A stretch of DNA of 35,514 nucleotides from a virus. The notes under the pieces are model-generated. The model did not search any database and was not told the origin of the DNA. It was given only the letters and a program-made list of their open reading frames with translations. The stretch lies in the IMG/VR virus record IMGVR_UViG_3300021600_000014, positions 1-35,514 of that record. One strand, 5' to 3'. The translations under genes and the position numbers were made by a program. Below, in pieces: positions 1 through 35,514 of this stretch; within the stretch, counting starts at the first letter, position 1, and the number at the start of each line of letters is the position of its first letter.

Positions 1-150
1 TAAAAGAATTTGCGGTGAAAACCAAGGCTTCGGTGTGTTTTTTCCAAACTCCTGCGATCCAAGCTGAATGATTTGGAAAAGACGTGCTGGATAGTGTCCA
101 TTTGGAATTGAATATTCAGGTTTAGTTATTCCTGCGTAAATTGGTGCCAT
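1..150 (-). CDS. SSB-like protein, N-terminal fragment (duplicate of right-end gene)
   Basis: This encodes the first 50 codons of the protein fully encoded at 34738-35457 and runs off the left edge. The ATG is at 150-148 behind an A/T-rich leader without a Shine-Dalgarno motif. The only difference from the right-end copy is codon 8, which is ATA (Ile) here and ATG (Met) there. It is not a separate gene but the other side of the circle junction. The variant may be a population polymorphism or an assembly error. Confidence 0.9.
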   Translation of the reverse strand, partial: MAPIYAGITKPEYSIPNGHYPARLFQIIQLGSQEFGKNTPKPWFSPQILL

Positions 151-207
151 AATTTTTTGTAATTTTAAATTTTTTAATTATTCTTTTTTACCCCAACCTC
201 TTAAAGT
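1..207. repeat. Left copy of 207-bp terminal direct repeat
   Basis: Bases 1-207 match 35308-35514 except at position 127 (T) versus 35434 (C). The repeat covers the 5' part of the SSB-like gene, the short gap before it and the last 30 bases of the 78-aa gene. This is what a linear contig cut from a circular or circularly permuted genome looks like. A genuine short terminal repeat is less likely because the boundary falls inside a coding sequence. Confidence 0.95.
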
Positions 208-33019: not shown

Positions 33020-33220
33020 GGTGTGCAAATTGATTTTTTTTTATGGCTTAACCAAGCCAACTTGCATACCTGCACACCTAGATTCAATTTTCAAACTTTC
33101 CCCTGTGTTTTTCTATATAACTCTTACCTAAAAGGTATGAAAGGTATGCAAGGTATGCAAAGGGTGCTTAGTAGAGCCACGTATTGAGGTTGCACACCTA
33201 CTTGCACACCCTTGCACACC
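33020..33220. repeat. Iteron cluster, candidate replication origin
   Basis: Nine copies or near-copies of a 9-mer GGTRTGCAA lie in 200 bp: GGTGTGCAA at 33020-33028; TTGCATACC at 33062-33070 and TGCACACC at 33071-33078 (inverted); GGTATGAAA, GGTATGCAA, GGTATGCAA directly abutting at 33134-33160; TTGCACACC at 33190-33198, 33202-33210 and 33212-33220 (inverted). A/T-rich tracts lie between (33031-33041, 33107-33120). The cluster fills the gap between the replicative helicase and the CHC2 gene. Iterons at this place are the hallmark of a theta-type phage or plasmid origin; an operator array is the alternative. Confidence 0.75.
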
Positions 33221-34489
33221 TTAAATCTTAAACCAGCGCATTTTTTGCTCTCCGCCAACCATAACTCTCCGCCTTTCCCAACCCAACTGTTTCAATGCTA
33301 AGCCTATCTGCATCTCTTCGCTTTTGCGCATTTTTGAGGCGTCTGCTTGCAGTGCCCAGCGCCAAATGTCGGTGATTGTCACGCCCTCAGTCAAATCAAT
33401 CAAAGTTCCAAGTTTTAAAGGATTTGCAAACCAGTCGCGAATAGTGTCCTCAAAGGATGACCTAACCATTTTGGCATTTTGGTGGCACTCGCTGTCGCAA
33501 GGATATTCGTGCACGCTCTCTTTCAATTCTTCAACACGATAGAGCGCCTCGGCAAACATCTGCATCCTATTTTTTTCCAGCCATTCTAGGTCGACAAATG
33601 GGAGTTTCACTTCAACAGGATAAAATCGCCTGTTTCCGGATTCGTCTTTTAAATATTCGTCTTGATTGGTGCTCATTGCAAAGATGCAGCGGCGCGGCAC
33701 ATCTTTCATCGTTCGGCCATAAGGTGCGCGGTAGGTATCGGTTGCGGTGGAAATCATAGCTTTCATGTTTTTGGTCTCGGTGCGGCTGAGCGTCTCACCC
33801 TCGGAAAATTCCACGATCATCTTGCCTTTGAATTGCAAGAAAAAGTCTTTGTTGTCAGCCCGGAGTGTAGTCTCAAGGTGCCAGTCCCCGGCAATAATTG
33901 ATAGACTGGTAGATTTTCCGCATCCCTGCTTGCCCTCCAAAATCATAACGGTGTCAAATTTACATCCGGGTTGGATCACGCGTTTGACCATTCCTTTGAA
34001 AAAATTTGCGCCAACGGCCTTGTGATACTCGTCGTCTTCGGTTCCGTAAACCTTGGACAGCCACGAATCAAGCCTCGGCTTCATGTCCCATTTTTCCTGC
34101 CTGATGAAATCAAGTGCTCGGTCAAAGGAATTCTCGCGGCAAGTGTCCATCACTGCATCAATTACCATCTCCTTGCCAAGTTGGCGAAATTGCGGATACA
34201 TTGCGGAAATCCTGCGTTGGATTGGTGTGAAATCTGAGTCATCCACCTCAATCCAGCGACTATCCTTTTTGATTTCCATTTTTTGTAGCCACTCATCATA
34301 GCGAAATCGTCCTTTGAATTCCGGGTGGTTTTGCAAAATTCTAACCACATTTTCAGTGCACCGATTATAAACCTTGGCACCGCCACTCCCGGTAGTGGTC
34401 AATAATTTTAATGAATCGATAGGGATTTGTTGCGCTTCGTATGCAACGTCCCTGCCTGCTGCAGCAAACACTTGGTCTGTCTGTTTCAT
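33221..34489 (-). CDS. VirE/VapE-type (D5-like) replicative helicase/primase-associated ATPase, 422 aa
   Basis: The ATPase core shows Walker A ILEGKQGCGKST (183-194), Walker B KMIVEFSEGE (223-232), a sensor CIFAMSTN (268-275) and the family motif DESGNRRFYPVEV (282-294), which identify the virulence-associated protein E superfamily of phage and plasmid helicases. Residues 1-110 are a separate N-terminal region with no primase catalytic motif I can identify. The C-terminus (residues 330-422) resembles the wHTH-containing part that binds origins. It probably unwinds the nearby iteron origin. A 16-nt gap separates its ATG from the stem-loop element upstream. Confidence 0.87.
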   Translation of the reverse strand: MKQTDQVFAAAGRDVAYEAQQIPIDSLKLLTTTGSGGAKVYNRCTENVVRILQNHPEFKGRFRYDEWLQKMEIKKDSRWIEVDDSDFTPIQRRISAMYPQFRQLGKEMVIDAVMDTCRENSFDRALDFIRQEKWDMKPRLDSWLSKVYGTEDDEYHKAVGANFFKGMVKRVIQPGCKFDTVMILEGKQGCGKSTSLSIIAGDWHLETTLRADNKDFFLQFKGKMIVEFSEGETLSRTETKNMKAMISTATDTYRAPYGRTMKDVPRRCIFAMSTNQDEYLKDESGNRRFYPVEVKLPFVDLEWLEKNRMQMFAEALYRVEELKESVHEYPCDSECHQNAKMVRSSFEDTIRDWFANPLKLGTLIDLTEGVTITDIWRWALQADASKMRKSEEMQIGLALKQLGWERRRVMVGGEQKMRWFKI

Positions 34490-34505: not shown

Positions 34506-34604
34506 CAAGTTTTAAACACAAAGGAGCCAGCCATCAAAACTTCAGGTGTATCTAGTACCTGCCCACGAATGGGAAATGGCTGGCTCTTCAGAATTTAAAA
34601 CTTG
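34506..34604 (-). promoter_or_regulatory. Branched stem-loop element before the helicase gene
   Basis: On the minus strand an outer stem P1 CAAGTTTTAAA/TTTAAAACTTG (34604-34594 with 34516-34506, 11 bp perfect) encloses, across 7-nt side loops, stem P2 GAGCCAGCCAT/ATGGCTGGCTC (34586-34576 with 34534-34524, 11 bp perfect). P2 opens into a three-way junction with hairpin P3 CCCA-TTCG-TGGG (34573-34562) directly abutting hairpin P4 CAGGT/ACCTG (34561-34543, 9-nt loop). The junction strand AAGTTTTG can also pair with the P1 3' arm, an alternative fold. It ends 16 nt before the ATG. Either a leader RNA or an origin structure. Confidence 0.7.
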
Positions 34605-34633
34605 TTAGATACTTAGTTTTTATTTATGTGTCT

Positions 34634-34661
34634 ATTTTACTCCTTTGTGCGCGATTGGCAA
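34634..34661 (-). promoter_or_regulatory. Possible promoter for the helicase gene
   Basis: TTGCCA (34661-34656), 16 bp, TAAAAT (34639-34634) on the minus strand, a moderate sigma-70 match lying just upstream of the stem-loop element, so a transcript would start with that element. Confidence 0.45.
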
Positions 34662-34679: not shown

Positions 34680-34725
34680 TTATCAACCGCTTATCCACCA
34701 CCGCGCCACTTGACTGACGCGGTGG
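34680..34725. other. DnaA-box-like sites and GC hairpin
   Basis: TTATCAACC (34680-34688) and TTATCCACC (34691-34699) match the DnaA box TTATCCACA at seven and eight of nine positions and are spaced 11 bp apart, one helical turn. Next to them CCACCGCG/CGCGGTGG (34698-34705 with 34718-34725) forms an 8-bp hairpin with a 12-nt loop. No T-run follows, so it is not a standard terminator. The arrangement suggests a binding region for host initiator protein. Confidence 0.5.
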
Positions 34726-34737
34726 ATTCGGTCGTTC

Positions 34738-35457
34738 CTACAGTAGAAAATCGTCTGGCATTTCTTCTTCTGCTGGTTTTGCAGCTGGAGATATTGCACC
34801 TGCAAAATGATTGTTGCCAAATGGCACATCTTCTTTTGTTAGCGGTGCTGGTGCTTGTTGCGTTTCCGGTTCTTTTTCTTCAAACAGCTCCCGGTATTCT
34901 TTGGATTGCTGAATTTTTTCCACGATCCAGTTCGGCAAATAAAATGCATCAATATTTGCAAAATCCTCAGTGCTGACCATTATTGGCTTGCGATAAACTG
35001 GAAAATCCAATAGCGCTTTTTTGAAATCCAATGGCTCAACTCCGACGATGTTCTGATAAACTTGTCCCTTGCTTTCAACGCCATCCAAGATGATCGCGCA
35101 TTCCTTTCCAAGAAAAGATGAAATGTCAAACTTCTCCAATTCCTCCTCGGTGTATTCAGCAGATCCGTGCATACCGTCGATTATTTCCCTAAGTCCCACG
35201 GTTCCATTTTTTGATGGGTTCAGTGAAAGGAAATAAGTGCCGCTTTTAATATTTGAAACGGTCTCACCGTTTTGGTTTTCATAGGTCAATGATGGAAGTT
35301 CAAATCCTAAAAGAATTTGCGGTGAAAACCAAGGCTTCGGTGTGTTTTTTCCAAACTCCTGCGATCCAAGCTGAATGATTTGGAAAAGACGTGCTGGATA
35401 GTGTCCATTTGGAATTGAATATTCAGGTTTAGTCATTCCTGCGTAAATTGGTGCCAT
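34738..35457 (-). CDS. Putative ssDNA-binding protein, 239 aa
   Basis: It starts MAPIYAGMTKPEYSIPNGHY, then PARLFQIIQLGSQEFGKNTP, a pattern seen in phage proteins often annotated as SSB-like or recombination-associated, in which the ARxxQIIxLGxQ strand starts an OB-like fold. The C-terminus is disordered and acidic, ending EEEMPDDFLL, similar to the acidic tip of bacterial SSB that recruits partners. It lies in the operon with the Sak4-like ATPase and before the helicase. The ATG is at 35457; the codon 8 polymorphism is described at the left-end copy. Assignment is by pattern and context. Confidence 0.65.
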   Translation of the reverse strand: MAPIYAGMTKPEYSIPNGHYPARLFQIIQLGSQEFGKNTPKPWFSPQILLGFELPSLTYENQNGETVSNIKSGTYFLSLNPSKNGTVGLREIIDGMHGSAEYTEEELEKFDISSFLGKECAIILDGVESKGQVYQNIVGVEPLDFKKALLDFPVYRKPIMVSTEDFANIDAFYLPNWIVEKIQQSKEYRELFEEKEPETQQAPAPLTKEDVPFGNNHFAGAISPAAKPAEEEMPDDFLL

Positions 35458-35514
35458 AATTTTTTGTAATTTTAAATTTTTTAATTATTCTTTTTTACCC
35501 CAACCTCTTAAAGT
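35308..35514. repeat. Right copy of 207-bp terminal direct repeat
   Basis: Identical to bases 1-207 except C at 35434 (T at 127). Joining the ends gives a circular map of 35,307 bp. The mismatch argues against a purely computational k-mer overlap and suggests true within-population variation or a base-call error. Confidence 0.95.

Follow-up and report, generated by a model that had tools for sequence, protein, structure and literature searches.

The gene for a VapE/SF3-type DNA helicase in this phage is directly preceded by a structured element in which complementary segments are interleaved in the order a, b, a', b', and this layout is found in 17 contigs, namely the window (the whole 35,514-nucleotide stretch of DNA that was analysed) and 16 further ones, in each case directly upstream of a VapE-type helicase or primase-helicase gene. 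The layout recurs without sequence similarity and is accompanied in most relatives by a leader ORF and a terminator-like tail. We lean toward reading the element as a cis-acting 5'-leader gate, an attenuator or translational switch that would act on the mRNA of the replication helicase (primase-helicase in most relatives). With a similarly modest leaning, we take the gene that it would control in the window to be the helicase at 33221..34489.

Structure of the element in the window

The two ends of the window (1-207 and 35308-35514) repeat each other with 206 of 207 positions identical, and the nearly closed contig thus represents a phage genome of about 35.3 kb that is circular or circularly permuted. 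Most of the genes are on the minus strand; among them are those for a portal, a terminase, methyltransferases, a primase-type zinc finger protein, and the VapE helicase. No tRNA or tmRNA was found in the window, and neither an integrase nor a repressor was seen among the window genes tested. The element spans 34506-34604 and is read on the minus strand, directly upstream of the helicase gene. The features of the region are as follows.

33221..34489, minus strand: VapE/SF3-type DNA helicase, 422 aa (PF05272, E 2.3e-63; phrog_256, E 1.2e-79)
34516-34506, minus strand: 3' arm of the outer stem, TTTAAAACTTG, pairing with 34604-34594; the helicase ATG (34489) follows after 16 nt
34593-34587 and 34523-34517, minus strand: side loops of 7 nt each, between the outer and inner stems
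34534-34524, minus strand: 3' arm of the inner stem (b'), ATGGCTGGCTC, with CTTTGTGTTT after it as a weak U-rich tail
34542-34534, minus strand: junction strand AAGTTTTGA, a possible 9-bp partner of the outer 3' arm (window only)
34548..34554, minus strand: segment a' (TAGATAC), within the second hairpin's loop, complementary to a
34561-34543, minus strand: second hairpin, CAGGT-ACTAGATAC-ACCTG, abutting the UUCG hairpin; its loop holds a'
34573-34562, minus strand: CCCA-UUCG-UGGG hairpin of the three-way junction (from sequence and fold)
34586-34576, minus strand: 5' arm of the inner stem (b), GAGCCAGCCAT, 11 bp, perfect
34604-34594, minus strand: 5' arm of the outer stem, CAAGTTTTAAA, 11 bp, perfect; within loop L1, between a and b
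34606..34612, minus strand: segment a (GTATCTA), just 5' of the outer stem and about 12 nt past the putative transcription start; placed as in relatives with respect to the -10 and the hairpin
34634..34639, minus strand: -10-like hexamer TAAAAT of the putative promoter (consensus scan)
34656..34661, minus strand: -35-like hexamer TTGCCA of the putative promoter (consensus scan; 10/12 together with the -10, 16-nt spacing)
34691..34699, plus strand: DnaA-box-like TTATCCACC, upstream of the promoter, with TTATCAACC beside it at 34680-34688

The two perfect 11-bp stems, the 7-nt side loops, the UUCG hairpin, and the abutting second hairpin that the first-pass annotation described are all present, and the element ends, as it had said, 16 nt before the helicase ATG (34506 to 34489). 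Its judgement that such a fold lies beyond chance also holds: the minus strand folds with -42.9 kcal/mol (z -5.5), and none of 200 dinucleotide shuffles was as good. With 32-nt arms that match at 81%, the element exceeds every other inverted repeat in the 35.5-kb window by a wide margin in length and is the strongest of them. The fold of the plus strand is slightly more stable (-46.6 kcal/mol, z -6.6), and the choice of strand is therefore impossible from the window alone; folded as DNA, the element gives a z of -5.4. The tail CTTTGTGTTT after b' is weak, and a terminator scan gave no call there.

The RNA was not recognized at the outset as a known riboswitch, ribozyme, or phage RNA, and the searches agree. 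Rfam 15 has no family at the gathering threshold in the window, the best sub-threshold match of a permissive search is chance-like (mir-433, 22.9 bits vs 70), and nothing was found at the leaders of the two contigs with the closest helicases, L002 and L003. A blastn search of the region in phage records gave no match, and no description of the element was found in the literature, taken as open-licence papers only. An integron attC-like reading, prompted by the ATCTAAC/GTTAGAT pair that flanks the element, was ruled out by relatives that lack this core. As a separate observation, CACAAAGGAG (34640-34649, in the promoter spacer) and CTCCTTTGTG (34517-34526, at the inner stem's base) are perfectly complementary over 10 bp.

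On the 3' side of the helicase gene (33040-33220, minus strand), iteron-like direct and inverted repeats (GGTGTGCAAG, TTGCATACC) flank an AT-rich stretch; the direct repeats are 9-10 bp long, and the array is a probable replication origin. L002 and L003 have iteron-like arrays at the corresponding place, 3' of the helicase, and in several relatives with fused genes such arrays come before the leader. The window in this way resembles the SaPI-like VapE/SF3 replication module, which likewise combines a VapE-domain helicase (PF05272) with adjoining iterons.

The a-b-a'-b' layout in relatives

The closest helicases, those of L002 (69%) and L003 (65%), both have large inverted repeats of different letters directly upstream, and in both these repeats interleave as a, stem arm b, a' (the complement of a), and b'. 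In most relatives the helicase and primase are fused into one gene, and the layout lies just upstream of its start. The elements have no alignable sequence across the 17 contigs and no mutual blastn similarity at E 0.01, even though the helicases of some carriers are >70% identical (up to 73%). What is kept is the stems, with different letters, which is the opposite of uncompensated stem loss or of conservation in primary sequence only and bears out the original proposal of a structured RNA associated with the helicase gene. Minimum free energy z-scores range from -2.1 to -7.0 over all 17 members, and the sense strand is more stable than the antisense strand in 15 of them, which argues for RNA.

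Two details of the original description fare differently. The three-way junction is present in the window but is optional in the family, because the apical part is a single loop in several relatives. It had further been suggested that the junction strand could replace one arm of the outer stem, so that the element could switch. That 9-bp pairing exists in the window, but no equivalent was seen in relatives; the alternative that recurs is instead the long-range pairing a:a', whose energy over the family is comparable to that of the outer stem. The a:a' complementarity, the leader ORF, the terminator-like tails, and the DnaA box in most relatives all go beyond the first-pass annotation, and a:a' is the recurring part.

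We compared a:a' pairing with that in dinucleotide-shuffled 5' flanks, keeping the hairpin and using boundaries of a, b, a', and b' that had been curated by eye beforehand. Pairing exceeds that of the shuffled flanks with a Fisher combined p of ~1e-15 over the 17 members; individual p values run from 0.001 to 0.15, and the highest is that of the window, whose 7-bp pairing is not significant alone. An uncurated automated scan of 20 leaders found 12 that beat all 100 shuffles, which none of four element-free relatives did, and it missed L002, L033, L037, and L046 owing to interrupted or short stems. The spacing is regular as well: a and b are 16-32 nt apart (L1) in 16/17, and in the same 16 members a begins 7-21 nt past a -10-like hexamer. 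The atypical member is L002, with an L1 of 1 nt and no clear promoter. In the region 2912-2979 this contig also has GAGAGAAGAG, a third segment 5' of a, which can compete with b' for pairing with b and which, judged on sequence, is a clearer candidate for a strand-exchange switch than the one in the window.

In 16/17 members L1 also pairs with a stretch 3' of b', often reaching the start codon region, to form the outer stem. Energies are comparable over the family (-5 to -16 kcal/mol for a:a', -1 to -15 kcal/mol for the outer stem); in the window the outer stem is better than a:a' by about 6 kcal/mol. The two pairings should be mutually exclusive on geometric grounds, because the 5' arm of the outer stem would have to stretch along the helices.

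A promoter-like match in the sense direction is enriched over background at the leader position across relatives (p ~1e-8), and antisense promoter-like sites are not clearly above background in the leaders (p 0.05). Upstream of the -10, 12/17 leaders have a DnaA box with no more than one mismatch, as against 7.7% of random windows. A short leader ORF that runs through the whole hairpin is present in 13/17, a count that includes L017, where it runs into a longer ORF, and L033, where it was read by eye; it is absent in the window, L002, L003, and L053. It begins with ATG or GTG 2-22 nt past a TATAAT-like -10, mostly 5-11 nt past it, and the mRNA would thus be leaderless or nearly so. The stop falls at -12 to +8 of the primase or helicase start in 12 members, with an ATGA overlap in six. 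Stop codons make up 1 of 423 codons in the ORF frame of 12 leaders and 66 of 839 in the other two frames (29 and 37; Fisher p 2e-11). Because the leader peptides share no evident common motif, translation itself, rather than the leader product, seems to matter. In L017 (996-1655) the longer ORF, which overlaps the primase start, is possibly an HNH endonuclease, as judged by eye. Finally, b' runs into or precedes at least four T in 13/17 members, resembling intrinsic terminators; a good U-tract is absent in the window, L002, and L053.

The element is absent in four close relatives (L028/L027, L048, L049, and L054), and thus it is not essential to this type of replication. In the element-free L028 (2586-2601) and L027 (2542-2557), the primase ATG follows a TATAGT -10-like box by 6 nt, and the primase mRNA may be leaderless there. 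One carrier, L066, lies within a metagenome-assembled genome labelled Methylococcaceae, a label that is possibly a binning artefact; none of the more distant helicases from genomes of the order to which that label belongs had the element. No convincing upstream element was seen for the VapE proteins of Pseudomonas U5, Marinobacter PS3, podovirus ctHz2215, pGO128, pKNA06, or E. coli pM121-3. Primase genes of Croceibacter and Elizabethkingia, considered as candidates, were rejected, as they start at most 10 nt after a DNA polymerase gene.

A proposed leader gate and its alternatives

In the mechanism that we favor, the promoter just upstream would start the RNA, with segment a within the first ~30 nt. 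A two-tier hairpin would follow, composed of a GC-rich inner stem b:b' and an AU-rich outer stem that extends toward the translation start region of the helicase, with a' in the apical loop. On a nascent leader that is not translated, b:b' and the outer stem would form, and transcription would stop, the helicase start would be hidden, or both. Pairing of a with a' would then close the 5' end, including the near-leaderless ORF start of the relatives, and could make the decision irreversible. A ribosome trailing the polymerase through the leader ORF would instead open the hairpin and might reinitiate at the overlapping primase start. The clade of the window has no leader ORF, and only the translational half of the gate can apply there. 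A translational gate is the most likely form in this clade, in which a closed outer stem would mean off and a formed a:a' with an opened outer stem would mean on; with both the leader ORF and the U-tract missing, this is a mechanism that we infer. The net effect would be that synthesis of the replication initiator is held back and timed.

The same parts could be arranged to act in trans. Leader RNAs that are ended or processed after the hairpin would expose a', pair with a on other nascent leaders, and shut off the helicase as copies rise, giving sequence-specific copy control or superinfection exclusion, much as phage P4 CI RNA or plasmid antisense RNAs do. The terminator-like tail lies directly after b' in 13/17 members, a is in the first ~30 nt of the RNA and covers the leader start in several, and full sequence turnover with constant architecture is what is expected of specificity determinants; moreover, no enriched antisense promoter is present to supply a separate countertranscript. 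We nevertheless consider this self-antisense reading doubtful, as the length of L1 allows a:a' pairing in cis, the window has no good terminator tail, and the window genes tested include no integrase or repressor.

A role at the DNA level, in which the interleaved inverted repeats would be a cruciform or a protein-binding array within a replication origin, appears improbable. The repeats are indeed seen in the DNA, which folds as such with the z of -5.4 given above, and DnaA boxes lie upstream in most leaders. However, the iteron-like arrays 3' of the helicase (window, L002, and L003) or upstream of the leader (others) are better origin candidates, the members offer no common sequence for a protein to read, the sense strand folds better in 15/17, and terminator tails and leader ORFs are oriented features. 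The GC stem and T-run of 13/17 leaders would also suit a simple intrinsic terminator or an insulator that stops transcription arriving from upstream, with a:a' incidental, but we regard this as very improbable: the helicase's own promoter is upstream of the element, the hairpin is traversed by leader ORFs, a:a' greatly exceeds chance across the family, and the window, L002, and L053 have no T-run. T4 gp32 represses its own translation on the pseudoknot of its leader, and by analogy the helicase or another phage protein could bind the structured leader here and block its own translation. The structure abuts the start region and the product is a nucleic-acid-binding protein, yet members share no sequence or loop motif and the leader ORF would be left unexplained; this autogenous operator is the least probable of the readings that we weighed.

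Relation to known replication controls and significance

The closest logic for the proposed leader gate is that of the RepY/RepZ control of IncI plasmids. The pairing partner in those plasmids lies 3' of the hairpin, near the rep start, whereas here it lies 5' of the hairpin, near the RNA start. In the IncI complex, expression of the initiator needs translation of a leader peptide and is controlled by an antisense RNA (PMC10286972), and a pseudoknot is the switch (RepY/RepB leader peptide, RepZ/RepA initiator; ColIb-P9 and IncB), according to titles cited in PMC10724649. Shared features are an initiator gene, a coupled leader ORF just upstream (in the relatives), long-range loop pairing, and a sequence-variable specificity region; the loop pairing, as a:a', is present over the family and weak in the window alone. 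Differences are that no separate antisense RNA promoter was found here and that the phage elements combine a terminator-like tail and a near-leaderless leader ORF with a VapE helicase instead of RepA/RepZ. The window itself, having no leader ORF and no antisense promoter, is not an IncI-type member.

Phage P4 CI RNA and P1 c4 RNA are hairpins encoded in leaders that also contain, a short way 5', a segment complementary to them, with P4 being a case of replication operon control. Our elements share with them the leader-encoded hairpin complementary to an upstream segment and, in the case of P4, the predicted control of a replication operon, but have no Rfam match and no evident lysogeny, and their action in trans is putative. 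In the prophage Gifsy-1, the terminated small RNA IsrK and a structured read-through mRNA that carries a short ORF come from one promoter (PMC4825925). Alternative folds, a short ORF upstream of the controlled gene, and the combination of terminated RNA and read-through mRNA are points of likeness, whereas IsrK controls anrP/antQ rather than replication and has a different fold (PMC4825925). In pT181 and R1, according to titles cited in PMC10724649, attenuation or leader-peptide translation sets initiator synthesis. Both have a countertranscript, which is not indicated here.

The elements described here would be a regulatory RNA that is set by its layout and not by its letters, so that sequence-based RNA families miss it, and the sequence-specific part differs entirely among relatives with helicases that are >70% identical. 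It is conceivable, although decidedly doubtful, that the leader RNA is its own antisense, with a' of terminated leaders recognizing a on new transcripts, which would be a kind of phage replication control not described before. If so, recognition of a at the near-leaderless ORF start would provide each phage lineage with a private, fast-diverging specificity code, helicase synthesis would be limited by copy number, and identical superinfecting phages could be excluded. Segments a, a', b, and b' are now defined in a set of phages and are testable. If the leader gate that we favor is correct, tailed phages would control a replication initiator by a leader-ORF/pseudoknot logic that is otherwise known from low-copy plasmids.
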